Below the pieces are notes generated by a model. It worked only from the letters and a program-made list of their open reading frames with translations, was not told the DNA's origin and made no database searches. The position numbers and the translations under genes are program-made. Shown one piece after another: positions 37,882-56,278 of a stretch of DNA of 64,000 nt. The stretch is from Flammeovirgaceae bacterium UBA4465 (GTDB lineage Bacteria; Bacteroidota; Bacteroidia; Cytophagales; Cyclobacteriaceae). The DNA lies in contig CAJJBF010000007.1 of the NCBI GenBank assembly GCA_905182375.1, positions 124,001-188,000 of the forward strand, in the 5' to 3' direction. Position 1 is the stretch's first letter; each line of letters begins with the position of its first letter.

Positions 37882-38158
37882 GTTATCACTTTTATCTACA
37901 AAGTTGACCCGTGTTATGTTACCGAATCATTAACAAATCATTATTAAAATGTCATTCGATTTTTAATAGTTTATCAACATGTCTAAAATAAAAAGGTCAA
38001 ATTAGGGATTCAACATAACTTTTATTCATATTTCCCTTGAAAGTGAAAATATTTAAGCTATTTATCTTTTAGATCTCTAATTCTTTAAAATAATTTTTAT
38101 CGTTAAAATAATTGAATGATGAGTTAGATTTAGGTTTTTAAAATAATTCTATAGCATT

Positions 38159-40478
38159 ATGGATAATATATTCTTACTTATGGTAGTGGCCTTGGTTTTT
38201 CTTGCCATTGCAGACTTGATCGTGGGCGTAAGTAATGACGCAGTGAATTTCTTGAATTCTGCCCTTGGTTCAAAAGCACTTTCCTTTAGAACGATCATGA
38301 TCTTGGCAAGTCTAGGCATTGCGTTCGGAGCCATCTTCTCGAGTGGCATGATGGAAGTGGCGCGTAAGGGAATTTTTAATCCAGGAGAATTTATGTTCGA
38401 TGAAATTATGTTCATCTTCATGGCGGTCATGATTACCGATATTCTATTGTTAGATTTTTTCAATTCATTGGGCATGCCTACCTCAACGACAGTCTCCATT
38501 GTCTTTGAATTATTAGGAGCTTCCGTAGCTATGGCCCTAATCAAAATCAGTGCTGATGGAGGTGAATTTGCGGATTTGATTATCTATATCAATACCTCTA
38601 AAGCCGTTCAAATTATTTTTGGTATCCTACTCTCGGTGGTGGTGGCCTTCTCTGTAGGTGCACTCGTGCAGTGGATCTCTCGATTGTTATTGTCCTATCA
38701 TTATGAGAAAAAGGCAAAATGGATCGGTGCTTTATTTGGAAGTATTGCCCTTACCGCAATCACCTACTTTATCTTATTAAAAGGAATTAAGGGTACCTCA
38801 TATGCTGGGCAAAGTTTTGAATTATTGGGAGGTGAGACCATCAAAAGTTTTTTAACGAATCAAATATTTCTCATCATTATTGTCAGTTTGACTTTGTGGT
38901 ATTTTCTTTCTTTATTATTCATTAAAAAGCTTAAAATAAATATATACAAAGTTATCATTGGTGTCGGCACCTTTGCCTTAGCACTTGCCTTTGCAGGAAA
39001 CGATTTGGTGAATTTCATTGGTGTGCCAATAGCCGCATGGCAGTCCTACGAAGCTTGGGTAATATCGGGTGTACCTGCCCATGAATTTAGCATGCAAGTG
39101 CTGGATGCTAAAGTACCCACCCCTACGCTCTTCTTATTTATTGCCGGTATCATTATGGTGTTGACCTTATGGTTTTCAAGTAAAGCTAAATTAGTAGTAA
39201 AAACCTCCATTGATTTATCCAATCAAGGAGAAATTAAAGAACGTTTCCAGCCCAATTGGGTATCCAGAGGGTTTGTGCGCTTTGCCATGGGGATGTCAAC
39301 GTTTTATCAAAAGTACTCCCAGAAACTCTTCAAAATAAAATCGAAGCGCAATTTGAAAAGCCCACCATTTACTTAGTCAAAGATAAAACACTAGAATTCC
39401 TGCATTCTGATATGGTCCGGGCGGCCGTCAATCTGATGGTGGCAGGGGTTTTAATTTCAATAGCAACCTCTTACAAATTACCTCTTTCTACCACTTATGT
39501 GACCTTCATGGTTGCCATGGGCTCTTCCTTAGCGGATCGAGCTTGGGGACGTGAAAGCGCCGTCTACAGAGTAGCCGGAGTATTAAATGTTATTGGTGGA
39601 TGGTTTTTTACGGCGCTTGTTGCTTTTTCAGCTGCCGGTGTTATCGCTTATTTAATCAATTTAGGGGGTCCTGACGGCCATTGCTGTTTTACTCTTTATT
39701 GTACTCTTAAATTTTGGTTCGAATTATATTATCTCGCGTTATAAAATCGAAAGAAATCAATGCAGAAGACCGATTGAAAAAAGCGGAAAGCAGTTCGGTT
39801 CAAGGTGTCATTACTGAAAGCGCAGCGAATATCGCCAATGTAGTCAAGCGAGGTAATCGAATCTATACCAATGCCATGCATGGTCTCGCTGAACATGATT
39901 TGGAATTACTCAAAAAGAATAAAAAACAAATTGTCAAACTTTCTGCTGAGGTAGATGAATTGAGTGATAATGTGTTTTACTTCATTAAAAATTTGGACGA
40001 ATCGAGCTTAAGTGCGAGCAACTTCTATCTCAACATATTGGGATATCTCCAAGATATGACCCAATCACTTGAGTATATCTCTAAAGTCAGCCACAAGCAT
40101 GTTAACAATAATCATAAAAAATTAACCCCTACGCAAACCAAAGAGCTTAAAGATTTAGACGATCGTTTTGAAACTTTCTTCATTAATATCATCAATGCCT
40201 TTAGGACAGAATCCTTTGAAGAAGTTGGTGTAATTTTAAATAGAAAAACTGAATTGATCAATTCAGTTTCCGACAAAATCAATAAGCAAATTGAACGAAC
40301 CAGGGCAGATGAATCGAGTCCAAAAAATACAACTTTATATTTTAGCTTGTTAATAGAAACCAAAGATTTATTGAATGCAACCATGAGCATATTAGATGAA
40401 TATTATAGTTCGTATGACAAATCAGCGTCAAACTTCTCCTCATGGCTAAAAAAGATAAGCCTACTTGATTTTAAATAA
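38159..40478 (+). pseudogene. PiT-family inorganic phosphate transporter with PhoU-like C-terminus, three frameshifts
   Basis: Four frame segments make one long transporter of about 770 residues. The N-part has DLIVGVSNDAVNFLNSALG and a repeat near 39000 (AGNDLVNFIGVPIAAW), the duplicated signature of PiT phosphate/cation symporters. Frame changes occur at the A-run 39309-39312 (one base missing), the G-run 39664-39668 (one extra) and the A-run 39743-39746 (one extra). Between them are KVLPETLQNKIEAQFEKP, VLTAIAVLLFIVLLNFG and KSKEINAEDRLKKAES in the proper order. The last 240 residues form a helical PhoU-like domain, as in many Bacteroidota PiT proteins. Each indel is in a homopolymer, so sequencing error is as likely as loss of function. 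Confidence 0.8.
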
Positions 40479-40799
40479 GCTGACTCTCGAAGAATACTCT
40501 TTTTCATCTTCTCGATTGAGGAGTTATTCATATGAATTCCTCAGGTAATAGTTACGGAATTTTCGCTATTCTTGATGTACAACCTAACTACATCAAAAAT
40601 GTAATCGTTTTATTTTAACATAAAATGGTCAAATTGGACTCTTGTCCATAATTATACAAATCGAAATGATCAATTTCCAACGTAGTCCAAACTCAATCTC
40701 TCTTAAAATAAAGAGGCGTCAAGTAATTAGTTAATTTTGTATTAATCGTAAAATCCTACTCATTTCATAAGCCTTTTAAGTAATTTAGTTAACTAAATC
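40479..40799. other. AT-rich intergenic region with small palindromes
   Basis: This 321-base region separates the phosphate transporter from the symporter pair. It holds an imperfect palindrome at 40517-40542 centred on ATTCATATGAAT, a small hairpin TGGAC-TCTT-GTCCA near 40635-40648, and a -7-like element at 40732-40739. No ORF or RNA gene is evident. Confidence 0.4.
40732..40739 (+). promoter_or_regulatory. Possible -7 element for symporter pair
   Basis: TAATTTTG matches the Bacteroidota -7 consensus TAnnTTTG and lies 60 bases before the proposed TTG start at 40800. A -33 TTTG at the usual 17-23 base spacing is missing, so it is weak. Confidence 0.3.
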
Positions 40800-41315
40800 T
40801 TGAGTCTGTTGAAGCTAAAAGTTGATGCGTTTTTATTGGTGGGTCTGATTTTTTTGACGCTTGTTGTTCTTTATTTTTTGATAACAACACCTGAAGTCTC
40901 TTATTATCAAACGTTACACTCAGAGTTCAATGGTCTGATGATCTCAGGTAGAACTGCGAATGATCATTCTTCTTATAGCTTTATTTTCTGTTTTGGAATG
41001 ATCTGGGTCTATTTAGGAAGTCTTTTGTTGTCTACCAGACATCTAATTAAACAAAAGCGTAAGAACATTCAAATCGTAATGACCTGCTTTTGTTTGGTCT
41101 ATTTATGCCTACTTGGATTATTGATTTTTTCAAAGGATCTCAACCTTCAATCTTTTTATTTTGGTTTCCCAAGATCAACCGCAGTGATGCTATATTTAAT
41201 TGGATTTTCCCCTTTATCCCTATCATACATCTATATCCGTTATTTTGAAACTCTCATAATAACTGAAGCATCTTTCAAAAGTTTTCAAAATTTCATAAAG
41301 TCTCAAGATAAATAA
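40800..41315 (+). CDS. Small four-helix membrane protein upstream of SSS symporter
   Basis: A 171-residue hydrophobic protein with four predicted membrane segments (about residues 9-29, 61-81, 92-110 and 126-146). The start is TTG at 40800, because an in-frame TAA lies two codons upstream and no ATG is available. Its stop is one base before the TTG of the SSS symporter, so the two are translated together. No family is recognised. Small membrane partners are known for some sodium symporters, which makes an accessory role reasonable but unproven. Confidence 0.6.
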   Translation: MSLLKLKVDAFLLVGLIFLTLVVLYFLITTPEVSYYQTLHSEFNGLMISGRTANDHSSYSFIFCFGMIWVYLGSLLLSTRHLIKQKRKNIQIVMTCFCLVYLCLLGLLIFSKDLNLQSFYFGFPRSTAVMLYLIGFSPLSLSYIYIRYFETLIITEASFKSFQNFIKSQDK

Positions 41316-41316
41316 T

Positions 41317-42798
41317 TTGGAAGCATTTAGAAACCCCATCATTCTCGGCTTTGTAGCCGCTTATATGCTTTTAACTGTTTTAGTTGGTATTTGGGCCCTT
41401 CGAAAAACCAAATCCACTCAGGATTTCTTTATGGCTGGAAGAGACTTGGGCATCATGGTTACTGGATTTGCTGTTTTTTCAAGTCTCTTGAGCGGCTTTG
41501 GATTCGTAGGTGGCCCTGCCCTAGTATACAAAATGGGAATGAGTTCAGTATGGATGTTTGTCTGCGTGATCATGGGATTTAATTTATCCTTTTTTTTACT
41601 CGCGAAACGTTTGAGATTGTTTGCTGAAATTGGCAATCCCATCTCTCTGCCCGATGTGGTTAGATTGAGATATGACAATGCTTTTACTCAAGGACTCATG
41701 GCTTTAGCTATTATCTTAGGTGTATTAGGTTATTTAGCCACGCAGATATTAGCAATGTCCATTGTGCTGCAAGAAATATTAAATGCGTCTAGTTTCATTG
41801 AATACATAAGTATCGGCTACTGCATGCTCATTTCATGTTCTATTTTAGTTTTTTACAGTATTACGGGAGGTATTGTTGCCTCAGTTTATACTGATCTGGT
41901 CCAAGGCGCTATTATGATATTTGGTGCTATATTGATTTTTTTTAGTGTCCTCAATTTATTTGAAGGGGGCTTTCAAGAGATCAGCCAAATCATCGGTCAA
42001 GACGATGCCGGAGCGATTGGACCTTGGGGTACTTTAGGTACCATGGGCTCCTTGTCGTGGCTATTTGTTTTCATGATGGGTGGAGCAGGCCAACCACATG
42101 TGATTACTAAGATGATGATGTACAAAAACATCTCAGACGCAAAATATATTTTGCCTACTTCGATTATTGGTTATTTTTTTTCAGCTCTTTTATGGTTGTC
42201 GATTGGTTTAGCCATGAGAGCGCTGGTAATCAGTGGTATGCACTCTGAATTATCAAATGCAGATATGGCGGCTTCAGTATATTTACAATATTATACTAAT
42301 CCAATATTGGCAGGTCTTGTTTTCGCTGGTCTTTTCGCAGCGATCATGTCTACCGCGGATGCCTTTCTAAATATTGGTACGGCGGCCATTATGCATGATC
42401 TTCCTAATGCCATTGGCATTAAAATTAAAAATGATCTCTTTTGGGCACGCGTAGTTACTTTCATATTAACCGTAATTGCGGCCCTATTTGCTCGTTATTC
42501 AGGAGATTTAGTGGCTATTTTAGGCGCTTTTGGTTGGGGTACTTTTGCTGCAGCCATTGTACCTGTAGTAGTCATTGGATTTAATTGGAAACGTGCCACA
42601 CCTTTAGCCGCTAATGTGTGCATTATAACAAGTCTATTGATCAATTTTAGTGTGAAAATACTAGATATCAAGGTTCCCTATGCCATTGATATAGGCGCTA
42701 TATCACTCATTACTTCCATGCTTTTATTTGTAAGTATCTCGCTTCTGTCTAAAAAGCCTTTTATCAACAAGAACGTTGAAGCAGCTATGGACTTATAA
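41317..42798 (+). CDS. Sodium:solute symporter (SSS family)
   Basis: A 493-residue transporter with about 13 membrane helices. It begins with TTG one base after the small membrane gene. SSS hallmarks: DFFMAGRDLGIMVTGFAVFSS-type segment in helix 2, the YSITGGIVASVYTDLVQGAIM segment of helix 6, and MSTADAFLNIGTAAIMHD in helix 9. It takes up a solute with Na+, likely a monocarboxylate, amino acid or similar, but the substrate cannot be told. A TetR-type regulator follows on the opposite strand, its 3' end 11 bases away. Confidence 0.9.
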   Translation: MEAFRNPIILGFVAAYMLLTVLVGIWALRKTKSTQDFFMAGRDLGIMVTGFAVFSSLLSGFGFVGGPALVYKMGMSSVWMFVCVIMGFNLSFFLLAKRLRLFAEIGNPISLPDVVRLRYDNAFTQGLMALAIILGVLGYLATQILAMSIVLQEILNASSFIEYISIGYCMLISCSILVFYSITGGIVASVYTDLVQGAIMIFGAILIFFSVLNLFEGGFQEISQIIGQDDAGAIGPWGTLGTMGSLSWLFVFMMGGAGQPHVITKMMMYKNISDAKYILPTSIIGYFFSALLWLSIGLAMRALVISGMHSELSNADMAASVYLQYYTNPILAGLVFAGLFAAIMSTADAFLNIGTAAIMHDLPNAIGIKIKNDLFWARVVTFILTVIAALFARYSGDLVAILGAFGWGTFAAAIVPVVVIGFNWKRATPLAANVCIITSLLINFSVKILDIKVPYAIDIGAISLITSMLLFVSISLLSKKPFINKNVEAAMDL

Positions 42799-42809
42799 AA
42801 GACTTGTTT

Positions 42810-43442
42810 TTAGGCTTTTACTACTTCTGAAACTGAAAATTTTATGATTTCAATATATTCATGGTAGCCCTTTTCCGTCATTAAGGGGATAGCATTACTC
42901 CATAAAATATCAAGTTGAGAGGGGCTATCTCTAAAGGTATCCGCTGTCATTAAACTATAGGTCTTCCAAAATACACTGATCATCCATATGGTACGAATGA
43001 AATAAGCATAATTAATTTTTTCATTTTCAGGTTTCAATCTACCTGTCTTTATATAATAATTAATTAATAATTTTGCGTCTCGAAATCTTTTCCGCGTGAT
43101 GATACGATAACTCTTTGTGATTTCGGGGAAAGTTTTGAATATGTATTGTAGGTTATTATAGTAGAAATGGTATTTCGCCTGTATCTGGCTATAACTTTTG
43201 AAAATTTCCTCAAAATGATACAGCGTAATATAGCCGCTTGGCATAATATCTATAGAAGTCTCCTGTATTAACTGATGTTGAATGGCTTTTAATAAATCTG
43301 TCTTTTTTGTAAAATAATAAGTGAGATTTCCAGGACTAATTGATAAGCTATCGGCAATTTGTTTAATGCTCACATCATGAAACCCTTTTTCATTAAATAG
43401 CTTAAGTGCCCGATCTATTATTTCTTGTCTCCTTCTACTCAT
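42810..43442 (-). CDS. TetR/AcrR-family transcriptional regulator
   Basis: A 210-residue regulator with the N-terminal DNA-binding domain RQEIIDRALKLFNEKGFHD-VSIKQIADSLSISPGNLTYYFTKK (residues about 4-50); the final part is the recognition helix with the common GNLTYYF pattern. The remaining 150 residues form the ligand-binding/dimer domain, unassigned. It is convergent with the SSS symporter and divergent from the basic-tailed gene at 43570. The inverted repeat in front of the acyl-CoA dehydrogenase, about 1.1 kb away, is a candidate operator for a TetR-type dimer, though nothing links it to this protein directly. Confidence 0.85.
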   Translation of the reverse strand: MSRRRQEIIDRALKLFNEKGFHDVSIKQIADSLSISPGNLTYYFTKKTDLLKAIQHQLIQETSIDIMPSGYITLYHFEEIFKSYSQIQAKYHFYYNNLQYIFKTFPEITKSYRIITRKRFRDAKLLINYYIKTGRLKPENEKINYAYFIRTIWMISVFWKTYSLMTADTFRDSPSQLDILWSNAIPLMTEKGYHEYIEIIKFSVSEVVKA

Positions 43443-43569
43443 CCTTACAAAGAAATTAAATAAAAATTAAAGACATAAAATTTTTTGAAAAGATATAGTT
43501 TTTTACGCATTTTTAGCCGGAAGTCCATACATGTCCTTTAAATTAGTGGTATTATATGCCATCTAAGCC

Positions 43570-44435
43570 ATGAGATTAAGCTCACTATCGAGAAAATTAA
43601 AATTAAAACCTTCAGAACTAGAGCTCTTTTATGAAAATAAAGGAATCGAATTACTGGCCTCTAGCAATTCTAAACTTAGTGACGAGGAAATAAAAATTGC
43701 CCTGGAGTATTATGATTTTCAAGAAGAGGAAGAAGAAGTTGTCGTTGCTAATTCTGATCACCTAGCTCAGTCAAGCGATCACGAACCTATTATTTTCCAA
43801 GATCTGGAAATAAAATCGAATGCAGAGGATACCGTGGCCCTCGATATCGAAGAGGTCAAACTAGAAGATGTCGAAATAATTGAGGTGAAAGAAAAACTAA
43901 AACCCCTCAATGACGATGACTTAAGAGTGAGAAAGAAATAGTAAAAACATCAGATGCCGATGATTTAATCAAGAAAATTGATGAGAATATTGAAGTCATC
44001 AAGGCTCCAGTAATCAAACTTAAAGGACTTACGGTTAAGGGTAAAATTGAGTTAACTCCCGAAAAAGTAAAAGAGGAATCATCCATTGTAGCAAAAAAAA
44101 TATCTATCAACTCTCATAACTCCAAAACAAAAAAGATTACTTATAATTCATTCAATCCCTTAGATGAAGTTCGAAAAAAGGAGGCTAAAAAAGAGCGTGA
44201 ACTCAGAAAAAAAAGAGCGGATCAACTGAAAAAAGAAAAAAGAGCGCGGTACTTAAAAGAACATCCCCCACGCAAGGAGCCGTTAAAAAAGAAGTTAAAC
44301 AAAAAACCCAAAAAAACATCTACGGTTCATATGAACGTGCCTGCGCCAACTAATAAACCATATCAATCAGCAGTCATCCCTCAAAAGAAACCTAATTTAT
44401 TTCAGCGTATTTGGCAGTGGTTAAACACTTACTGA
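43570..44435 (+). pseudogene. Acidic-then-basic hypothetical protein, frameshifted at about 43924
   Basis: The first frame gives 123 residues: an N-terminal helix-turn-helix-like module (SLSRKLKLKPSELELFYENK, similar in layout to small IF-2 N-like modules), then an acidic segment. It stops soon after 43921. In the frame that is one base shorter the sequence stays open with SEKEIVKTSDADDLIKKIDEN, a KEKRARYLKE-type basic coiled region and a C-terminus ending FQRIWQWLNTY before TGA at 44433-44435. One A missing from the TTAA(A)G at 43923-43925 would make a single protein of about 288 residues. Function is unknown; the Lys/Arg/Glu-rich tail suggests nucleic-acid or ribosome contact. Confidence 0.65.
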
Positions 44436-44542
44436 TTGTTTTAATAAGTTCCTCATCAATTTTATTTTCCTCCTGAAGCGAAGTAATCCTATCACTTGCT
44501 AAATAAATCACCCAGATGGCACCTCTTTTTTTTTAATTATAC

Positions 44543-44591
44543 GCTGCATGCATAACAATATTGATTATATTTGAAATGTTATGCATGCAGC
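44543..44591. repeat. Perfect 15-bp inverted repeat upstream of acyl-CoA dehydrogenase
   Basis: GCTGCATGCATAACA (44543-44557) is repeated as its exact reverse complement TGTTATGCATGCAGC (44577-44591), with a 19-base spacer. Each arm itself contains the palindrome TGCATGCA. The spacer contains the -7 element TATATTTG, so regulator binding to the arms would sit on the promoter. It could instead form a hairpin in RNA. An operator is the more natural reading. Confidence 0.7.
44566..44573 (+). promoter_or_regulatory. -7 element of acyl-CoA dehydrogenase promoter
   Basis: TATATTTG is an exact TAnnTTTG match inside the spacer of the inverted repeat, 43 bases before the ATG at 44616. Transcription would start near 44580, within the right arm. 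No clear -33 TTTG is seen; activation or another sigma factor contact may compensate. Confidence 0.45.
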
Positions 44592-44615
44592 ATGTTATTT
44601 AAATACCCAATAGAA

Positions 44616-46415
44616 ATGGAAAAGACATTAGAAAAGAACATTGTTAAAGGCGGAGGATTTTTATTCAACCATCCTCATTTTTCGGAAATATTTATCCCTG
44701 AAGAATTTAATGATGAACAAAAAATGATGGCTAAGGCCACACAAGATTTTATTGACAAAGAAGTATTTCCATTTGTCGAAAGAATAGATGCCTTAGAGGA
44801 AGGACTTATGCCTTCAATCATGACCAAAGCGGGAGAGTTGGGTCTTTTAGGAGTATGTATTCCTGAACAATATGGTGGTTTAGGTATGAGTTTTAATACG
44901 GGTATGTTAATTGCTGATATCGTCGCATCCACGGGATCATTTACTACTGCATTTGGAGCCCATACGGGAATTGGAACTTTACCTATTTTATATTATGGTG
45001 ATGACACTCAAAAACAAAAATATTTGCCCAGACTCTCATCTGGTGAATGGAAAGCTTGTTATTGTCTCACGGAACCTGATTCGGGGTCTGATGCAAATGC
45101 TGCAAAAACAAAAGCTGTGTTGTCTGAGGACAAGCAGTATTATTTTATATCTGGTCAGAAAATGTGGATTTCAAATGCTGGATTTGCTGATTTATTTATT
45201 GTTTTTGCTAAAATTGAAGACGATAAGAATCTTACCGCATTTATCGTGGAAAAATCCTTTGGAGGAATCACCATGAATGATGAAGAACGAAAAATGGGAA
45301 TAAAGGGATCTTCTACCCGTCAAGTATTTTTTAACGAGACAAAAGTGCCCGTTGAAAATATGCTTTCAAATCGTCAAAACGGATTTAAAATTGCCGTAAA
45401 TATTTTAAACATAGGTAGAATTAAATTGGGTTGTGGAGTGATTAACGCTTGTAAACAAATTGCAAATCAATCAACCCAATATGCCAATGATAGAAAACAA
45501 TTTGGTGTATCCATTTCTTCATTTGGTGCTATCAAGCAAAAATTGTCTCAAATGGCCGCCAAAACCTTTGGTATCGAATCCGCTTCTTATCGTGCGGGTC
45601 AAAACATCGATGATCAAGTTGATGTTTTAATAGCACAAGGACGCCCAGAGCATGAAGCCAAACTGCAAGGCGTTGAACAATTCGCTATTGAAGCAGCCAT
45701 CATAAAAGTACATGGATCTGATGTTTTGAATGAAATTGCTGACCAAGGCGTTCAGGTGTATGGCGGTATGGGATTTTCAGAAGAAGCTCCCATGGCTCGG
45801 GCTTACAGGGATGCTCGGATTGCTAAGATTTACGAGGGTACCAATGAAATAAATAGAATGCTTTTGGTAGGAATGATTGTTAAAAAAATTGCTAAAGGCG
45901 AATTTAATTTAAATGATGAACTTGATTTCTTCAATACAGGGATGATCCATAAGGATACTTTTGATGCTGCTCCGCTTTCGAAGGAATACAAAGCGATTAA
46001 GAATCTCAAAAAAACAACCTTAATGATAACGAGCAAAGCGCTCGAAATTTATGGCGCCAAAATCAATGAAGAACAGGAGGTCCTCATAAATATTTCAGAG
46101 ATGGTTATTGAAACTTACGTTGCCGAATCTACTTTACTCAGAACCTTAAAGTTGATTGATCAATCTGGAGCAAATTCAGCCGAATTATTCATAAATCTCA
46201 CCAAACTATACCTATATGATGCGGTCAGAAAGTCCAAAAATGCAGGTTATGAAGCCTTGGCTTGCATGATAGGTGATGAGGCTCATTTGAGCTCATTATT
46301 GAAAGTCATGGATCTATTAACCGCCTATAATCATTTGAATACAAGTAGGCTTTCTCGGGATATTGCAGATGAGATGATTCTGCAAAATAAATTTCCTTAC
46401 ACACTCTATCCTTAA
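44616..46415 (+). CDS. Acyl-CoA dehydrogenase, long (VLCAD-like) form
   Basis: A 599-residue flavoenzyme performing the first step of fatty-acid beta-oxidation. The ATG at 44616 was chosen over the upstream frame opening at 44571, which lies inside the inverted repeat. Features: CYCLTEPDSGSDANA and MWISNAGFADL (FAD-contacting strands), RKQFGVSISSFGAIKQKL, and the catalytic Glu in KIYEGTNEINRMLL (about residue 424). A 160-residue helical C-terminal extension beyond the normal 400-residue domain places it in the very-long-chain type class. Partner thiolase and hydratase genes are not adjacent. Confidence 0.93.
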   Translation: MEKTLEKNIVKGGGFLFNHPHFSEIFIPEEFNDEQKMMAKATQDFIDKEVFPFVERIDALEEGLMPSIMTKAGELGLLGVCIPEQYGGLGMSFNTGMLIADIVASTGSFTTAFGAHTGIGTLPILYYGDDTQKQKYLPRLSSGEWKACYCLTEPDSGSDANAAKTKAVLSEDKQYYFISGQKMWISNAGFADLFIVFAKIEDDKNLTAFIVEKSFGGITMNDEERKMGIKGSSTRQVFFNETKVPVENMLSNRQNGFKIAVNILNIGRIKLGCGVINACKQIANQSTQYANDRKQFGVSISSFGAIKQKLSQMAAKTFGIESASYRAGQNIDDQVDVLIAQGRPEHEAKLQGVEQFAIEAAIIKVHGSDVLNEIADQGVQVYGGMGFSEEAPMARAYRDARIAKIYEGTNEINRMLLVGMIVKKIAKGEFNLNDELDFFNTGMIHKDTFDAAPLSKEYKAIKNLKKTTLMITSKALEIYGAKINEEQEVLINISEMVIETYVAESTLLRTLKLIDQSGANSAELFINLTKLYLYDAVRKSKNAGYEALACMIGDEAHLSSLLKVMDLLTAYNHLNTSRLSRDIADEMILQNKFPYTLYP

Positions 46416-46485
46416 TTTAGCAAAAGGTATTTTTTATCTGTTCATAAATTACCCAGCTAAATATTTTTAAATGGAGTAAAGCCCC

Positions 46486-46493
46486 TACTTTTG
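46486..46493 (+). promoter_or_regulatory. Possible -7 element for the 46510 gene
   Basis: TACTTTTG matches TAnnTTTG and would start transcription about 10 bases before the ATG, giving a very short leader. There is no obvious -33 TTTG at proper spacing. Confidence 0.35.
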
Positions 46494-46509
46494 TGGAATA
46501 CTTTTATAT

Positions 46510-47904
46510 ATGGAAGCATTCAAAACATTAACGACTAAAGAAAAAGCCCTCAAACTTAATTTAAATGCTGAAATATATGGAACCATTGCCGAAATAGGTG
46601 GTGGACAAGAGGTCGCCAGTCATTTTTTCAAGGCAGGTGCTGCCTCAGGTACCATCGCCAAGACCATGTCAGCTTATGATATGACTTTTAGTGATGCCAT
46701 TTATGGGAAATCTAAAAAATATGTTTGTGAAGACAAACTTGATAAAATGCTCAGTAGAGAATATAATCTTTTGGCTGAGCGTTTGACGGAACGAGCCCCT
46801 CACTCGAAATTTTTTGCCTTCGCCAATACAGTTGAAACTTTGAACTTTGGCAAGACCAATGATGGTCATGGCTGGATTGGATTACGCTTCCAAAAGCAAC
46901 CCTTAGCCCCTCCTAATAATTGCATTATTCATGTTAAGTTACTAGATAAAGATGCCCAGTGGCAACAACTGCTGCTGGGTATGCTGGGCGTGAATTTAAT
47001 TCATGCATGTTTTAGTTATGACAATCCTGAAAAAATTATTTTGGCATTGGCGGATAATTTAGACCAAGATCGCTTTCAGATAGATATGTTCTCCATCATG
47101 GGCCCTGATTTTGAACAAATTGACAATAGACTAATGAGTTTACTTCTAGTTAAAAATGGCCTCTCTCAGTCTGCTATGTTTGGACCCAAAGGAAACGTAC
47201 TTCAGGCTTCTGAAGCTTTATATAAGAAGAACGTCTTGGTCCTAAGAGGCAGGTTTAGGCCCGTGACCAATGTCAACGTAGATATGATGATTAATGGCTT
47301 AAAAGTCATTAAGGAAGAATCAGAAATGGAAACAACTCATCTTCTGGCCCTAACTGAATTGACACTATATGATTTGACTTTGGCAGGTGAAATTGATGAG
47401 GCCGATTATTTAGATCGTGTGGATTTATTATGTGCATTAGGGCAAACCGTTTTGATATCAAATTATCGTGAGCATTATAAGCTGGCTTCTTATTTATCAA
47501 ATATTACTCAACGTATGAAGTTGCGAATTATTTGTGGCTTAGGTAATCTTGAAGGCATTTTTGATGAATCCTATTATGAGAATTTAAAAGGGGGCATCAT
47601 TGAATCCTTTGGTCAGCTATTTGCTCTCAACGTAAAAATTTACGTTTATCCTGCCTTGATTGCTGGCAAGGTAAAATCTATCGAAGACTTTGTTCCAGCT
47701 CCCCATCTCATCGACCTTTATAAATACCTTATTTCAAATAAACGAATAGTAGGTATAAAGGGCGCTAAAACCCAGTGGTTAACTATTGTTTCAGATGAGG
47801 TGCTGACTTTACTTAAAACGGGAAATCCAAAATGGGAAGAAATGGTCCCAAGAAGAGTTTGTCAAATAATCAAAGATAAAAAGATGTTTAATGTGCACAG
47901 GTAG
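46510..47904 (+). CDS. Conserved Bacteroidota protein of unknown function
   Basis: A 464-residue soluble protein with no signal peptide or membrane helix. Conserved-looking stretches include EIGGGQEVASHFFKAG, SGTIAKTMSAYDMTFSDAIYG and NDGHGWIGLRFQ. From memory, close relatives are widespread in Bacteroidota and are often labelled nicotinate-nucleotide adenylyltransferase; however, I see no GxFxPxHxGH nucleotidyltransferase motif, so that label is not supported. The N-terminal GGGQEVA-type segment with following Ser/Thr residues may bind a nucleotide or metal, but this is a guess. It stands alone downstream of the acyl-CoA dehydrogenase. Confidence 0.7.
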   Translation: MEAFKTLTTKEKALKLNLNAEIYGTIAEIGGGQEVASHFFKAGAASGTIAKTMSAYDMTFSDAIYGKSKKYVCEDKLDKMLSREYNLLAERLTERAPHSKFFAFANTVETLNFGKTNDGHGWIGLRFQKQPLAPPNNCIIHVKLLDKDAQWQQLLLGMLGVNLIHACFSYDNPEKIILALADNLDQDRFQIDMFSIMGPDFEQIDNRLMSLLLVKNGLSQSAMFGPKGNVLQASEALYKKNVLVLRGRFRPVTNVNVDMMINGLKVIKEESEMETTHLLALTELTLYDLTLAGEIDEADYLDRVDLLCALGQTVLISNYREHYKLASYLSNITQRMKLRIICGLGNLEGIFDESYYENLKGGIIESFGQLFALNVKIYVYPALIAGKVKSIEDFVPAPHLIDLYKYLISNKRIVGIKGAKTQWLTIVSDEVLTLLKTGNPKWEEMVPRRVCQIIKDKKMFNVHR

Positions 47905-48002
47905 ATGTTGTTATGTGTGAAATCCATTTATTTTCTTACCTCACTGTCTTCACTCGTTTGATTATAGTATATTTAGCCATCGTTTAAAAATGACATCATT
48001 TT

Positions 48003-49415
48003 ATGGTTGCAGAAAGAGGTAAATTCACCAATAAGCTCGGATTCATATTGGCCGCGGCAGGCTCAGCTGTTGGTTTAGGTAATATTTGGAAATTTCCTTT
48101 CGAAGTTGGCTTAGGGGGTGGTGCTGCTTTTGTCGTCATGTATCTTGTTTTTTGCTTTTTATTATGCTTCCCTGTAATGGTTACTGAAATCGCTATTGGA
48201 AGAAAAACACGCAAGAATCCTGTAGGTGCATTTACCGCATTGGGATTCAAAAATTGGAGGTTTATAGGTGTCTTTGGAGTTTTGGCCGGTATTTTGATCT
48301 TGTCGTTTTATAATGTGATCGCAGGTTGGGCATTTGGATTCTTTTTTGAGATGGTTACCGGCAACTTTAGCGTAAGTAAGCATTTCGGAGATTTCACCTC
48401 TGACATGATCAAAGTAGGTACTTATGCGGTTATTTTCATGTCTGCTACAAGTTTTTTTGTAGGTAGAGGTGTCTCAGGTGGAATAGAAAAATTATCAAAA
48501 ATTCTTATGCCTACACTCATCATAATGATCGTAATCATTGCAGCATACGCTCTAACTTTGCCAAATGCCTTTGAAGGTATCAAATTTTACTTAATTCCAG
48601 ACCTCAACGAAATCACGATAAATACGATTGGTGGAGCCTTAAGACAAGCCTTTTTTTCACTTTCATTGGGTATGGGTACCCTCATTACTTACGGAAGTTA
48701 TTTATCTAAAAATGATAATGTAATTTCCTCAGCTGCGTATATTACCTTGGCTGATGTCAGCATTGCTTTTGTTGCCGGTATGATGATTTTTCCTTTGGTT
48801 GCCTTCATCAACCAAGGAGATATGAGTACCGTAGCTTCTGATCAAGCGGGTCCTGGTTTAATTTTCATTACAATGCCTCGAGCTTTTGAAACCTTGGGGC
48901 CTAATTTAGGTGCCTTTGTGGGAGGGACGTTTTTTCTGTTATTATCTTTTGCAGCGTTAACCTCAACAGTTTCGCTACTAGAGGTGCCTACTGCATATAT
49001 CGTTGATGAGTGGAAAGTAAGTAGAAAAAAAGCAGTTTTAATTGCTTCCATCATCATTTTTCTTATTGGATTACCTTCAATGCTTGCTAATGGGGCCTCT
49101 GACTTCTTCTCCAATCAATTCAAAATTGCTGGGTCATCAGATTTTCTTTCGTTAGTTTCAAAAATAACAGACAGTATGTTGTTGTTAGGAGGCATGTGTA
49201 TTGTGATTTTTGCTGCCTACATTTGGAAAAAAGAGCAGCTCAATGAAGAGATATCCAATGGCTATGAAGGATTCAAAAAAAAGTTAGTGAGTAAATATCT
49301 TAATTTCACTATTTCTTATGTCAGCCCCATCATCTTGGCAATCTTGTTTGTTATTGTTGTGTTGAGTGAGTTTTTTGGAGTCAATGTTTATAACTACCTA
49401 TCAATTCTTTTTTGA
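48003..49415 (+). CDS. Neurotransmitter:sodium symporter (NSS/SLC6-type) family transporter
   Basis: A 470-residue membrane protein with about 11-12 helices. The start NKLGFILAAAGSAVGLGNIWKFP is the highly conserved first helix carrying substrate- and sodium-binding backbone groups. A second hallmark is SLGMGTLITYGSYL in helix 6. Bacterial members such as LeuT and MhsT import amino acids; the substrate here is unknown. The gene ends 15 bases inside the convergent hypothetical gene. Confidence 0.93.
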   Translation: MVAERGKFTNKLGFILAAAGSAVGLGNIWKFPFEVGLGGGAAFVVMYLVFCFLLCFPVMVTEIAIGRKTRKNPVGAFTALGFKNWRFIGVFGVLAGILILSFYNVIAGWAFGFFFEMVTGNFSVSKHFGDFTSDMIKVGTYAVIFMSATSFFVGRGVSGGIEKLSKILMPTLIIMIVIIAAYALTLPNAFEGIKFYLIPDLNEITINTIGGALRQAFFSLSLGMGTLITYGSYLSKNDNVISSAAYITLADVSIAFVAGMMIFPLVAFINQGDMSTVASDQAGPGLIFITMPRAFETLGPNLGAFVGGTFFLLLSFAALTSTVSLLEVPTAYIVDEWKVSRKKAVLIASIIIFLIGLPSMLANGASDFFSNQFKIAGSSDFLSLVSKITDSMLLLGGMCIVIFAAYIWKKEQLNEEISNGYEGFKKKLVSKYLNFTISYVSPIILAILFVIVVLSEFFGVNVYNYLSILF

Positions 49416-50198
49416 GAATCCAGTGGGCGCGATCCCATCAAAATAAATAACATAATCGCCTTCTTTTAACTTGCTGATGTTAATGACAATACCATCACCT
49501 TCCATCACCAAAGTAGATCCAGCATCATACACTTCATAATGCGCCTTCCTAGAAAGTTTAATGAGCTCATTTGAGTCATTAATACTGAAGATTACAGGGC
49601 TTGGATAATATTCATAATCAAGCTCTTGAGAATATAAATACTTATCATTATCAAAATCATATTTGATCCTGAACTTGTTGGCTCCAGGAACTAAAACAGG
49701 AGTGATTCCATAACTTGATTTTTCAAATTTTGAAGTGGACTTAATTTCAGCAATGTGTTCCCAAAGACCATCATATAACCTTTCAATAGAATAATTACCC
49801 TTACCATGCTCCCCTTGTGTCTCCCATTCTAAAAGAGTATCACTTACGGCCAGCTTATTGAACCTAAAGTTAGAATGATAAAATATGGCATCTGGATTAA
49901 TGACTATAGGATTACAAAGAGAGTCATTGTAGAAAATTTTAATCGAAACCGGTGAAAATAAATCAATTTTGTTAAAATCAAGAATTAAGGCACTTAATTG
50001 ATAGTTTAAATTAAGTGCCTTACCATTTAAGTCAATTTTAGTAATACAATAATTTGATGACTCATTTTGGTAAGGATTTTGTATAAATAAGGAATTACCT
50101 CTGTAGACACCAATGTACTCAGTTGAATAATCAGAATCAACTTGAAAGGCATTAAAAATAAAAAGAGCCCATGAAATAATAATTTTTGAAAAAATCAT
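49401..50198 (-). CDS. Exported hypothetical protein with possible FN3-like module
   Basis: A 265-residue protein. I chose the ATG at 50198 because the longer frame starts at TTG and the shorter one gives a good signal peptide (MIFSKIIISWALFIFNAF). The body is beta-rich. Residues about 115-215 contain LLEWETQGEHGKGNYSIERLYDG, which resembles the interactions-with-exported-protein style of FN3-type modules often seen before T9SS sorting domains. The C-terminal part (HYEVYDAGSTLVMEGDG ... EGDYVIYFDG) has the form of a T9SS-like sorting tail but lacks the usual basic end. Family not recognised. Confidence 0.5.
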   Translation of the reverse strand: MIFSKIIISWALFIFNAFQVDSDYSTEYIGVYRGNSLFIQNPYQNESSNYCITKIDLNGKALNLNYQLSALILDFNKIDLFSPVSIKIFYNDSLCNPIVINPDAIFYHSNFRFNKLAVSDTLLEWETQGEHGKGNYSIERLYDGLWEHIAEIKSTSKFEKSSYGITPVLVPGANKFRIKYDFDNDKYLYSQELDYEYYPSPVIFSINDSNELIKLSRKAHYEVYDAGSTLVMEGDGIVINISKLKEGDYVIYFDGIAPTGFSKKN

Positions 50199-50267
50199 AA
50201 TTATTGCTACCAATTATCCCTCGAAAAAATAGGCCTTTACTCAGCACGCTATTAGATTAAATGCATT

Positions 50268-50967
50268 CTAATTTAAATCTTCGAGCTGTTTTTTCACAAG
50301 ATCAAAATCCGGTGAAATTAATAATATGTCTTTGTATATTTTTGTTGCTTCAACTACATTTCCTTGCTCTTCATATATCATGGCCTTGAGACGTTTAGCC
50401 GCTGTTTTTAAGACTACTTCTTGCTCTGACTCATCATTTTTAGGAAAACGAATTTGAACTTCATTGGACTTAGCATCTGCTATGATAATGTCGACATTGG
50501 TAAAAGCTTCATTTAATCTCTTTAGTCTATACTGAAGAAACGAAACTTGATAAAGAATCATGATATCATTTCTAAGTAAATAGAGAGTTTCATAATATTT
50601 CAATGCCCTTTCAGTAGCCCCGATTTGCTCAAAGCTCAAAGCAGCTATTTCAGCTGCCAATTCATCTTTGGGATTTAGCGAAACAGCATCTACACTTATC
50701 CAATGCTGCAGAAACATATTGTTGCAATCCAAAATATATAAGGGCGATTGAATCTAGGATAGCACTATTATTACGGTTAAAGGCCAATAAATTGTACAGA
50801 GTTGATAATTGCATCATCTTATCATTATATTTTTTGGCCGCTCCATAAACAAATATTTGTCTTTGGACCTCCATGGGTATCAGCGTATCTCCCTCTACAT
50901 TATCTTGTGCAAATGTTAAACAGGGTAAAGAGCCTAGAATTAATATTGCAATAATGATTTTTTTCAT
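50268..50967 (-). pseudogene. Exported TPR-type protein, frameshifted near 50702
   Basis: From ATG at 50967: signal peptide (residues 1-20, ending LTFAQ), then NLLAFNRNNSAILDSIALIYFG and a break near the CCAA at 50700-50703. In the neighbouring frame the protein resumes with ISVDAVSLNPKDELAAEIAALS and TPR-like helix pairs (ALKYYETLYLLRN, AFTNVDIIIADAK, NVVEATKIYKDILLISPD). Removing one base restores a protein of about 232 residues. Role unknown; probably a periplasmic scaffold or chaperone-like factor. It is followed by the exported hypothetical gene. Confidence 0.7.
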
Positions 50968-51209
50968 TTGCTTAACTTATATTTTAGGTAAAGATAAGAA
51001 TTACTTCAACTTCTAATAACACAGGGTATTTTATTGTAACAAAAAATAAGCTTTTTTATTAAAAATTCAATGATTATTTATAATCATCAACTTTAGTATA
51101 ATATATCAAAACTAATCTTTTTGCCGATTTTCTACCAATGCTTTTTTTCATCTCAAAAAGTGCTTATATTTATCAAATGGGGATATTTTTAATTATTTTA
51201 AGATAATAA

Positions 51210-52634
51210 TTATTTCTGTTTAAAGACAATGCCCTGACTTTTACCTTCCTTTTTTATATATTCTAAGGCGGCATCGTATTGATTGGGTATTTTATTTTCA
51301 ATAATGGCTTCTTTAACCATCTCTTTCAACTCTCCCACTATTCTAGAGGGCTCCAAATCAAATATTTCCATGATTTTTTCTCCTGTGATCGGATTTTTAA
51401 AGTTACGAAGAGAATCTTTTGATTCTACTTTTTGAATTTTATCTTCCACATGTTTAAAATTCATTAAGTATTGTTGCACTCTGTTGTTGTTTTTAGAGGT
51501 AATATCAGCTTTACACAACATGAGCAAATCATCAATCTCATCACCCGCTTCATACATCAAGCGTCGGATCGCAGCATCGGTCACATTTTTACTTATCAAT
51601 GCAATCGGTCTGAGATGGAGGCGAACCAATTTTTGAACCAATTTCATATGCTCATTTAAGGGAAGTTTCATTCTTTTAAAAATACTAGGCACCCATTGAG
51701 CACCTTTGTCTTCATGCCCATGAAAGGTCCATCCTACCTTTTTATTAAATCTTTTAGTGTCGGGTTTAGCGATGTCATGTAAAATAGCCGCCCACCTCAA
51801 CCATAAATCATCCGTAGCTTTCGATATATTATCCAATACTTGCAGAGTATGAAAAAAATTGTCCTTGTGAGATTTACCCTCTCTGATTTGAACCCCATGT
51901 AATTTTTGTAACTCTGGGAAGATGATTTTTAAAAGGCCCGACTGAAACAACAAATTAAAACCATACGCAGGCTTTTCAGATAAAATAATTTTATTCAATT
52001 CCGTGGTTATACGCTCTTGCGAGATGATACTTATTCTTGAATTCATTTTTTGAATGGCCAAAAAAGTATCCGATTCAATATCAAAATTTAATTGGGCTGC
52101 GAATCGAATGGCACGAAGCATTCTCAAAGGGTCATCTGAGAAGGTTTCCTCGGGATCTAATGGAGTTTTTATACTTTTTTTCTTTGCATCAATTATTCCA
52201 TCAAAAGGATCTGTGAGTTCACCAAAATCTTTTTCATTGAGGCTTATGGCTAAGGCATTGATTGTGAAATCACGTCGATTTTGATCTTCTTCTAAAGTCC
52301 CCTCTTCCACTGTTGGCTTTCGAGATTCTGATCTATAAGATTCTTTTCGAGCCCCGACAAATTCTATTTCGAATTTTTGATATTTCACACATGCGGTTCC
52401 GAACTGCTTGTAAATCGCCAAAGATGCGCTGTCTCCAAGATACTTTTTTAATATTTGTGCCAAATGAATTCCGCTACCTAAGCACACAATATCAATATCT
52501 TGCTTACTATTTCGCTCGATGATTAGGTCTCGAACAAAGCCACCGATCACATAAGTCTCTATATTATGTTTTCCCGCCAAATCTCGAATGATTTGGAATA
52601 TATCAATATTTTGTATCCGATCTTTTAGATTCAA
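51210..52634 (-). CDS. cca: CCA tRNA nucleotidyltransferase with HD domain
   Basis: A 474-residue enzyme adding CCA to tRNA 3' ends. The class II head contains VIGGFVRDLII, the catalytic QDIDIVC carboxylates and RRDFTINALAIS. An HD-type domain follows (WAAILHDIAKPDTKRF and FHGHEDKGAQW), as in E. coli-type enzymes. The start is TTG: no ATG lies in frame before an upstream TAA. A weak -7 element is at 52701-52708. ligA is divergent on the other side of a 209-base gap. Confidence 0.9.
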   Translation of the reverse strand: MNLKDRIQNIDIFQIIRDLAGKHNIETYVIGGFVRDLIIERNSKQDIDIVCLGSGIHLAQILKKYLGDSASLAIYKQFGTACVKYQKFEIEFVGARKESYRSESRKPTVEEGTLEEDQNRRDFTINALAISLNEKDFGELTDPFDGIIDAKKKSIKTPLDPEETFSDDPLRMLRAIRFAAQLNFDIESDTFLAIQKMNSRISIISQERITTELNKIILSEKPAYGFNLLFQSGLLKIIFPELQKLHGVQIREGKSHKDNFFHTLQVLDNISKATDDLWLRWAAILHDIAKPDTKRFNKKVGWTFHGHEDKGAQWVPSIFKRMKLPLNEHMKLVQKLVRLHLRPIALISKNVTDAAIRRLMYEAGDEIDDLLMLCKADITSKNNNRVQQYLMNFKHVEDKIQKVESKDSLRNFKNPITGEKIMEIFDLEPSRIVGELKEMVKEAIIENKIPNQYDAALEYIKKEGKSQGIVFKQK

Positions 52635-55378: not shown

Positions 55379-56248
55379 ATGAGTGAACTATTTGTAGGTA
55401 CCGGTGTGGCCCTTGTCACGCCCTTCTTATCAGATAAAAGAATTGATTACGATTCTCTAGAACGCATCATTAAATTTGTGGATCTTCCTGAAATAAATTA
55501 CCTCGCCATTATAGGCTCTACAGGTGAAAGCGCCACTTTGAGCTGGAATGAGAAAATTGAAATCCTTGAATTCACTAAAGGAAAAGCCCCAGATCAACCC
55601 ATCCTATTTGGATTAGGAGGTAACGACACAGCCCAATTACTGAAAGAAATCAGCCTTATCGACAAGTATCCTATTGATGGAATTCTATCCGTCACTCCTT
55701 ATTATAATCGGCCGAGTCAAGCAGGTTTAATCTATCATTATAGACAGATAGCAGATGCTTCTGACCATCCTATCATACTTTACAATGTCCCTTCTCGTAC
55801 CGGTGTTAACCTTGAGTCCGACACCACGCTTATATTGTCGGAGCATCCCAATATCATGGGCATAAAAGAAGCTTCTGGAGACTTAAAGCAATGTGAACGG
55901 ATCATCAATTCAAAATCCGATGATTTCTTATTGCTATCTGGTAATGATCCTGAGACTTTAGCTATCCTTAAACTCGGAGGGAATGGATCAATCTCAGTTT
56001 TGGCCAATTACAAGCCTGAAATGTTCGGAAACATGGTAAGGTCTTATTTGAACAAGGAATATGGGAAAGCTTTAAAGTACCAGAATGAGCTCAGAGAATA
56101 CTTTGAATGGATGGATTTGGAAGGAAATCCAACTTCTATTAAAACCGCACTTAAAACCATCCATCTTTGCGAGAAAACGGTACGTTCTCCTTTAATGGAG
56201 GGCTCAATTGATTTAGAGAATAAGTTTTTAAAAAAAGGATCCCATTAA
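55379..56248 (+). CDS. dapA: 4-hydroxy-tetrahydrodipicolinate synthase
   Basis: A 289-residue TIM-barrel enzyme of the lysine/diaminopimelate pathway, joining pyruvate and aspartate semialdehyde. The Schiff-base lysine is K163 in GIKEASGD; the proton-relay tyrosine is Y135 in LYNVPSRTG; GSTGESATL is the pyruvate carboxylate-binding segment. Length is standard. It is the last gene in ligA-DUF-dapA and its stop lies inside a strong terminator hairpin. Confidence 0.95.
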   Translation: MSELFVGTGVALVTPFLSDKRIDYDSLERIIKFVDLPEINYLAIIGSTGESATLSWNEKIEILEFTKGKAPDQPILFGLGGNDTAQLLKEISLIDKYPIDGILSVTPYYNRPSQAGLIYHYRQIADASDHPIILYNVPSRTGVNLESDTTLILSEHPNIMGIKEASGDLKQCERIINSKSDDFLLLSGNDPETLAILKLGGNGSISVLANYKPEMFGNMVRSYLNKEYGKALKYQNELREYFEWMDLEGNPTSIKTALKTIHLCEKTVRSPLMEGSIDLENKFLKKGSH

Positions 56249-56262
56249 TGGATCCTTTTTTT
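56231..56262. terminator. Rho-independent terminator after dapA
   Basis: A 12-bp stem AAAAAAGGATCC / GGATCCTTTTTT with a 7-base loop CATTAAT (which includes the dapA stop TAA) is followed by T residues. Its symmetry also fits the convergent lipoprotein gene. Confidence 0.9.
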
Positions 56263-56278
56263 AAATCTGAAATTATAT

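Follow-up and report, generated by a model that had tools for sequence, protein, structure and literature searches.

A candidate twin-operator promoter of fadE and a probable MarR-type circuit controlling beta-oxidation in many Bacteroidota

Results

An inverted repeat encloses the -7 box of the fadE promoter

We analysed a 64,000-nucleotide stretch of Flammeovirgaceae bacterium UBA4465 DNA (contig CAJJBF010000007.1, positions 124,001 to 188,000), referred to as the window, with a focus on the promoter of fadE. This gene, the presumed target of the control described below, occupies positions 44616-46415 on the plus strand and encodes an acyl-CoA dehydrogenase of 599 aa, which contains Pfam Acyl-CoA_dh domains and matched NCBIfam NF058590 (FadE) with 678.7 bits (cut-off 600). 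The start codon is best set at the ATG at 44616, since the nearest relatives do not share the other in-frame ATG (44592). A gene encoding a TetR-family protein (Pfam TetR_N and PF13972) is located on the minus strand at 42810-43442. Upstream of fadE, at 43570-44434, an ORF of 123 aa in the window corresponds to one of 270-288 aa in each of four relatives (L029-L032). The remainder of the same protein is legible further on in another frame, which makes a frameshift or an assembly error likely. Three overlapping ORFs in different frames were also noted at 38159-40478, covering a phosphate-transporter-like protein and what follows it. The last part of this region is an unbroken ORF in one relative (L029), pointing to likely indel errors in the assembly of the window.

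The segment 44577-44591 is the exact reverse complement of 44543-44557; the two form 15-bp arms separated by a 19-nt spacer, and the left arm reads GCTGCATGCATAACA. When mismatches were allowed, the repeat widened to 27-nt arms with 85% complementarity, and no other inverted repeat of the window whose arms are separated by 60 nt or less is as long. When 200 windows were simulated with the dinucleotide composition of the real one, perfect 15-bp arms within this distance appeared in 2 of them (mean of 0.03 per window), and a chance origin of the repeat at 44543-44591 is unlikely on this basis. The real window contained three such pairs of arms at two places, 44543-44591 and 56227-56265. The latter is a second perfect inverted repeat, with 16-bp arms (TTTAAAAAAAGGATCC) and 7 nt between them. 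The arm motif was not over-represented inside the window alone when three mismatches were allowed (19 matches versus 25 expected); its recurrence is genome-wide and extends beyond the window.

The spacer contains a -7 box, TATATTTG, which conforms to TAnnTTTG and is located at 44566-44573 on the plus strand. Reading the window by eye did not reveal a -33 TTTG at the usual spacing. In a published Flavobacterium transcription start site map, the TAnnTTTG box lies at -12 to -5 (PMC9723704), and applying this position to the box of the window places the predicted transcription start at 44578 on the plus strand, inside the right arm. The features reported in the preliminary description, i.e., a perfect 15-bp inverted repeat with a 19-base spacer, a -7 element inside that spacer and a TetR gene about 1.1 kb away, were all recovered (the near end of the tetR gene is 1.1 kb from the repeat), and the transcription start that it put in the right arm agrees with the position predicted from the Flavobacterium box.

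The repeat is most likely a pair of operators

The preliminary description attributed the geometry of the repeat to a dimeric regulator acting at the promoter of an acyl-CoA dehydrogenase. This part of the proposal is supported. In place of one operator with half-sites 19 bp apart, the repeat is most likely better read as two operators, with each arm being a version of the palindrome TGTTATGCATGCATAACA. Both putative sites are variants of this consensus and neither is assigned to a strand. The left operator (TACGCTGCATGCATAACA, 44540-44557) spans approximately -38 to -21 relative to the predicted start, and the right operator (TGTTATGCATGCAGCATG, 44577-44594) spans approximately -1 to +17. Each would be close to an 18-bp palindrome, and the arms look inverted because each operator is nearly self-complementary. 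The two sites of the window each differ from the 12-bp core by two mismatches.

The arrangement was evaluated in a survey of 59 genomes (including that of the window), which returned 61 FadE-like matches; the best 30 of these 61 were examined. Two sites (at most two mismatches, within 125 bp upstream) were present at 12 of the 30 fadE loci, a single site at -249 was found at one locus (G056), and 17 loci had no site. A TAnnTTTG box was present between the sites in all 12 pairs, with a chance expectation of about 0.046 per gap, and both operators occupy the same places in all 12 loci. Six of the pairs came from the genus of the window and had the outer half-site [CT]GCTGCA. The other six (G014, G016, G021, G034, G039 and G058) consisted of two complete or near-complete palindromes, the right operator being a full or near-full palindrome in these relatives outside the genus. 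The same paired arrangement was found on two named contigs, L033 and L034; in L033, the two palindromes and the box between them were read directly from the sequence. The full palindromes outside the genus suggest that two full operators, rather than one long inverted repeat, are likely the ancestral state. The centre-to-centre distances were 37, 39, 41 and 45 bp over the 12 pairs, and 46 bp in L033 and L034. This variation (37-45 bp) favours independent binding at the two sites, and with such varying distances no looping is claimed from helical phasing. Contig L033 (CAKZMZ010000538.1) is filed under a Thalassobius MAG; its fadE is of the Bacteroidota type and has two full palindromes, and the filing is probably a binning error.

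The motif recurs upstream of beta-oxidation genes in the genome and the genus

The genome of the window (G000) comprises 2.67 Mb in 20 contigs and is 94.7% complete. The pattern YKMTGCATGCATAM occurred in this genome at four loci only, all of which, by our count, precede beta-oxidation genes. Apart from the site in the window, they were the palindrome TATTATGCATGCATAATA before a gene for a 380-aa acyl-CoA dehydrogenase, the palindrome TGTTATGCATGCATACAT before an Fe-S (Fer4) gene followed by a CCG gene, and the arm variant CGCTGCATGCATAACA before a second fadE, which is followed by genes for a thiolase and an enoyl-CoA hydratase/3-hydroxyacyl-CoA dehydrogenase (fadB). The reversed control of YKMTGCATGCATAM gave no matches in any of the ten genomes of the genus. 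Among the 26 genus loci (L141-L166), 25 were upstream of fadE1, fadE2, the same acyl-CoA dehydrogenase gene or the Fe-S gene. At the remaining locus (L149), a contig start only 189 bases away cuts off the gene, and the other flank is a sigma-factor gene that adjoins fadE2 in other genomes. One motif match (G003:C5:407694) was located inside an ORF, prmC-like in our own reading. Searches of the own genome with looser patterns returned 14 rows for a 12-mer with one mismatch (versus 4 in the reversed control), of which 6 were at fatty-acid genes and 8 elsewhere, and 14 places for a 14-mer with two mismatches (versus 5 in the control). Thus, the recurrence before other fatty-acid genes, which the preliminary description had named as a check, was found both in the own genome and in relatives.

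The region L229:2669-4795 (G000:C9, about 516168-518294) encodes a Fer4 protein, whose N-terminus is hydrophobic, and then a CCG protein, downstream of a perfect core palindrome, and the same gene order behind the core palindrome was observed in relatives (L234, L255, L256, L259 and L260). By analogy with EMO/HdrCB-like systems, the Fer4 and CCG proteins may link ETF to menaquinone as electron carriers during beta-oxidation. The second fadE (L227:451-2293, G000:C12) encodes 481 aa in G000 versus 613 aa in G007 (L114), suggesting a frameshift in the assembly.

A MarR-family protein is the candidate regulator

In a Lutibacter contig (L035) and three other Bacteroidetes contigs (L037-L039), the gene order was MarR, fadB-like, fadA-like and fadE, the fadB-like and fadA-like genes being named by reading the sequence, and the palindrome was located directly upstream of the MarR gene. 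A search with the MarR of the Lutibacter-type cluster gave matches in 42 of the 59 genomes. The palindrome was present within 350 bp upstream in 28 of the 30 MarR genes examined, in 27 of these with at most one mismatch. The corresponding stretches downstream gave 0/30, and shuffled sequences gave 0.5% (one mismatch) and 3.5% (two mismatches). The candidate is a MarR-domain protein of 150 residues. All three orthologs scanned exceeded the PF01047 cut-off (38.4, 47.1 and 47.5 bits versus 24.6), and none of these three proteins reached the cut-off of any NCBIfam MarR equivalog (top score of 45 bits versus 200). The paired sites followed the position of the MarR gene: when fadE was within 8 kb of it, fadE had its own pair in none of 14 genomes, and when fadE was away from it, in 10 of 11 genomes, the exception being G056 with its single site. 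Where no MarR was detected, two of five genomes (G000 and G006) had the fadE pair.

The situation within the genus of the window is less uniform. A close MarR was found in six of the ten genus genomes and was lacking in G000, G004, G006 and G008. No MarR was found in the 94.7% complete G000, and the 6-kb neighbourhood of the MarR gene in G007 had no match there. The latter suggests missing sequence, and the absence may be a gap in the incomplete assembly. G004 and G008, likewise without a close MarR, are 81% and 84% complete. G006, which is rated 99% complete, kept the paired sites without a close MarR, and its contig beside the flank matching the MarR region of G007 runs on with another gene. 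The MarR genes of the genus lie away from fadB and fadA (three loci read), and none of the six had a site upstream (best 3-5 mismatches). Compared to the MarR of G016, one of 20 positions in the helix region differed in the genus protein. The MarR of the genus may act at a distance and be missing from some members, having been lost there, or its role may have passed to another regulator. On this account, we regard the MarR explanation as likely without being certain. G000 has a second MarR-like gene (C5:149370), which was discounted as the regulator; its product is 27% identical and the palindrome upstream is, by eye, a different one. This palindrome-like sequence, TTTAGTTG...CAACTAAA (L132:1290-1340, G000:C5, near 149180), is perhaps the putative operator of the second MarR-like gene itself.

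The core palindrome and MarR co-occur across the phylum

The association was further examined in 296 Bacteroidota genomes, using the exact core TATGCATGCATA and a MarR profile (A1, E at most 1e-22). The core was present in 57 genomes, compared to 14 genomes (at most two copies per genome) for the reversed control core, and MarR was detected in 53. Counted without correction for phylogeny, the core occurred in 45 of the 53 genomes with MarR versus 12 of the 243 without it, and at least two copies were found in 36/53 versus 2/243, respectively. Since the 296 genomes are related to each other, the Fisher values computed for this association are too favourable. Within the class, the core was found in 45/53 genomes with MarR versus 3/20 without. 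Eight of the 53 MarR genomes had no exact core. Among the 59 nearer genomes, the core was present in 31 of 42 with MarR versus 5 of 17 without; four of these five belong to the genus of the window, and in the fifth (G019) the site lies away from any fatty-acid gene.

Nineteen of the 27 sites fetched in the phylum search precede genes for EtfB, ketoacyl-synthase III, MarR, short-chain dehydrogenase, thiolase or acyl-CoA dehydrogenase, and eight (L167, L172, L174, L175, L179, L190, L192 and L193) had no clear beta-oxidation neighbour. Of the 29 sites fetched from the nearer genomes, two (L237 and L249) likewise had none. Apart from MarR, one or two representatives of each of these gene families were checked against Pfam and the rest were assigned by matching N-termini.

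Discussion

The genome comparison shows the sites and how they are placed about the -7 box; it also shows that they recur upstream of beta-oxidation genes and that they are associated with MarR. The fadE gene of the window is probably transcribed from a twin operator-promoter run by a MarR-family repressor encoded elsewhere, and the arrangement is most likely part of a control circuit common to many Bacteroidota, with a probable MarR-type regulator and not the neighbouring TetR. According to the proposed mechanism, a MarR-family dimer would bind to each of the two palindromic sites with the consensus TGTTATGCATGCATAACA. The protein would be encoded elsewhere, as it presumably is in the strain of the window; in many relatives it heads a MarR-fadB-fadA-fadE cluster. 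The left site would overlap the -33 region and the right site would cover the transcription start, so that with both dimers bound, RNA polymerase would have no access to the intervening -7 box. Judging from the pathway, a fatty-acid signal, probably acyl-CoA or a free fatty acid, would release the repressor, and fadE would be switched on together with the other genes bearing the site. In F. psychrophilum, beta-oxidation genes were up-regulated with fish mucus and plasma, with no regulator named (PMC9723704), and this induction fits an inducible regulon.

The preliminary description had put forward the neighbouring TetR (42810-43442) as the regulator, and repression of fadE by this protein through the repeat, perhaps as a MarR replacement inside the genus, would be in line with its presence beside fadE in exactly those six of the ten genus genomes that have this fadE; G000 and G006 have the TetR and no close MarR. 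However, the linkage may be plain synteny. Close TetR orthologs (86-100% identical, own gene counted) were confined to these 6/10 genus genomes and absent from the 49 other genomes searched, in which only five matches of 28-34% identity were found. Six relatives outside the genus have paired fadE sites without a TetR ortholog, G004, G005, G008 and G009 carry sites at other genes without one, and nothing like the palindrome is located upstream of tetR (best four mismatches), which makes TetR quite doubtful as the regulator. The palindrome could instead be read by another regulator, for which MarR is one target gene or which replaced MarR in the genus. The persistence of sites in G006, G004 and G008 without a close MarR would be explained in this way, as would the outer half-site changed to [CT]GCTGCA at all genus fadE loci. 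Nevertheless, we consider it unlikely, as the exact core was found in one of 13 MarR-less relatives outside the genus, away from any fatty-acid gene, with no sites at fatty-acid genes found in these relatives, and a palindrome just upstream of the gene for a MarR protein is the usual pattern of autoregulation.

If transcribed, the whole repeat would fold strongly (-23.5 kcal/mol, z -5.6), as expected for an attenuator or another hairpin in the fadE leader; the preliminary description had named evidence of an attenuator hairpin as something that would refute its proposal. This reading is disfavoured because transcription from the predicted start at 44578 would leave out the left arm and include the right arm alone, and the folding of the leader does not surpass that of its shuffles (z +0.84, with 162 of 200 shuffles as good). 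Single copies of the palindrome also precede other genes, and the position of the -7 box between the arms is conserved in relatives; a function in RNA is highly improbable. We attach as little weight to an invertible promoter in which the arms would serve as recombination sites. A TAnnTTTG promoter flanked by inverted repeats, as found in the window, is the outward sign of such switches in gut Bacteroidales, where all 48 invertible promoters of one study were just downstream of an invertase gene (PMC8748976). In contrast, the spacer of the window is only 19 bp, the -7 box has the same direction in each of the 12 paired loci, which come from different genomes, and inspection by eye of the listed ORFs of at least 100 aa at 38000-52000 revealed no invertase. 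Moreover, the arms recur singly before other genes and each is a palindrome of its own outside the genus.

A broader picture may be drawn, which we offer as a speculation with a rather small chance of being right. Bacteroidota would possess a global fatty-acid-degradation regulon of their own, governed by MarR through TGTTATGCATGCATAACA, and a fadE leaving the MarR operon would gain a twin-operator promoter. In the genus of the window, MarR would have come loose from the operon and be in the course of being lost or replaced, with the operators, including the new outer half-site, persisting under another regulator.

In proteobacteria and Bacillus, much work has been devoted to how beta-oxidation is controlled. 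For Bacteroidota, no description of such control, of the motif or of a fatty-acid MarR regulon was found in the literature searched, most subscription journals and regulon databases (e.g., RegPrecise) being outside its scope. For a large environmental group, the results provide a candidate regulator with a candidate operator, both precise and testable, and the sites point to likely further members of the pathway, i.e., the membrane Fe-S protein and the ketoacyl-synthase III homolog. The paired operator at a fadE located apart from MarR would represent a regulon that survives the break-up of its operon.

Both the architecture and the protein family belong to types already described. MarR, SlyA and FabT are autoregulated repressors of the MarR family with short palindromic operators, and the candidate resembles them as a 150-residue MarR-domain protein with a palindrome upstream of its own gene in 28/30 cases. 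It differs from them in its targets, which are beta-oxidation genes, in the pairing of its operators around the -7 box at a free-standing fadE, and in reaching no NCBIfam MarR equivalog cut-off in the three proteins scanned. Fatty-acid degradation is repressed by FadR of the GntR family in E. coli, by FadR of the TetR family in Bacillus and Thermus, and by PsrA, also of the TetR family. The likely role of the candidate is similar, in that a single regulator would control fadE, fadBA, etf and further genes of beta-oxidation, whereas the protein belongs to the MarR family rather than to GntR or TetR, and its putative operator differs from those known for FadR and PsrA.
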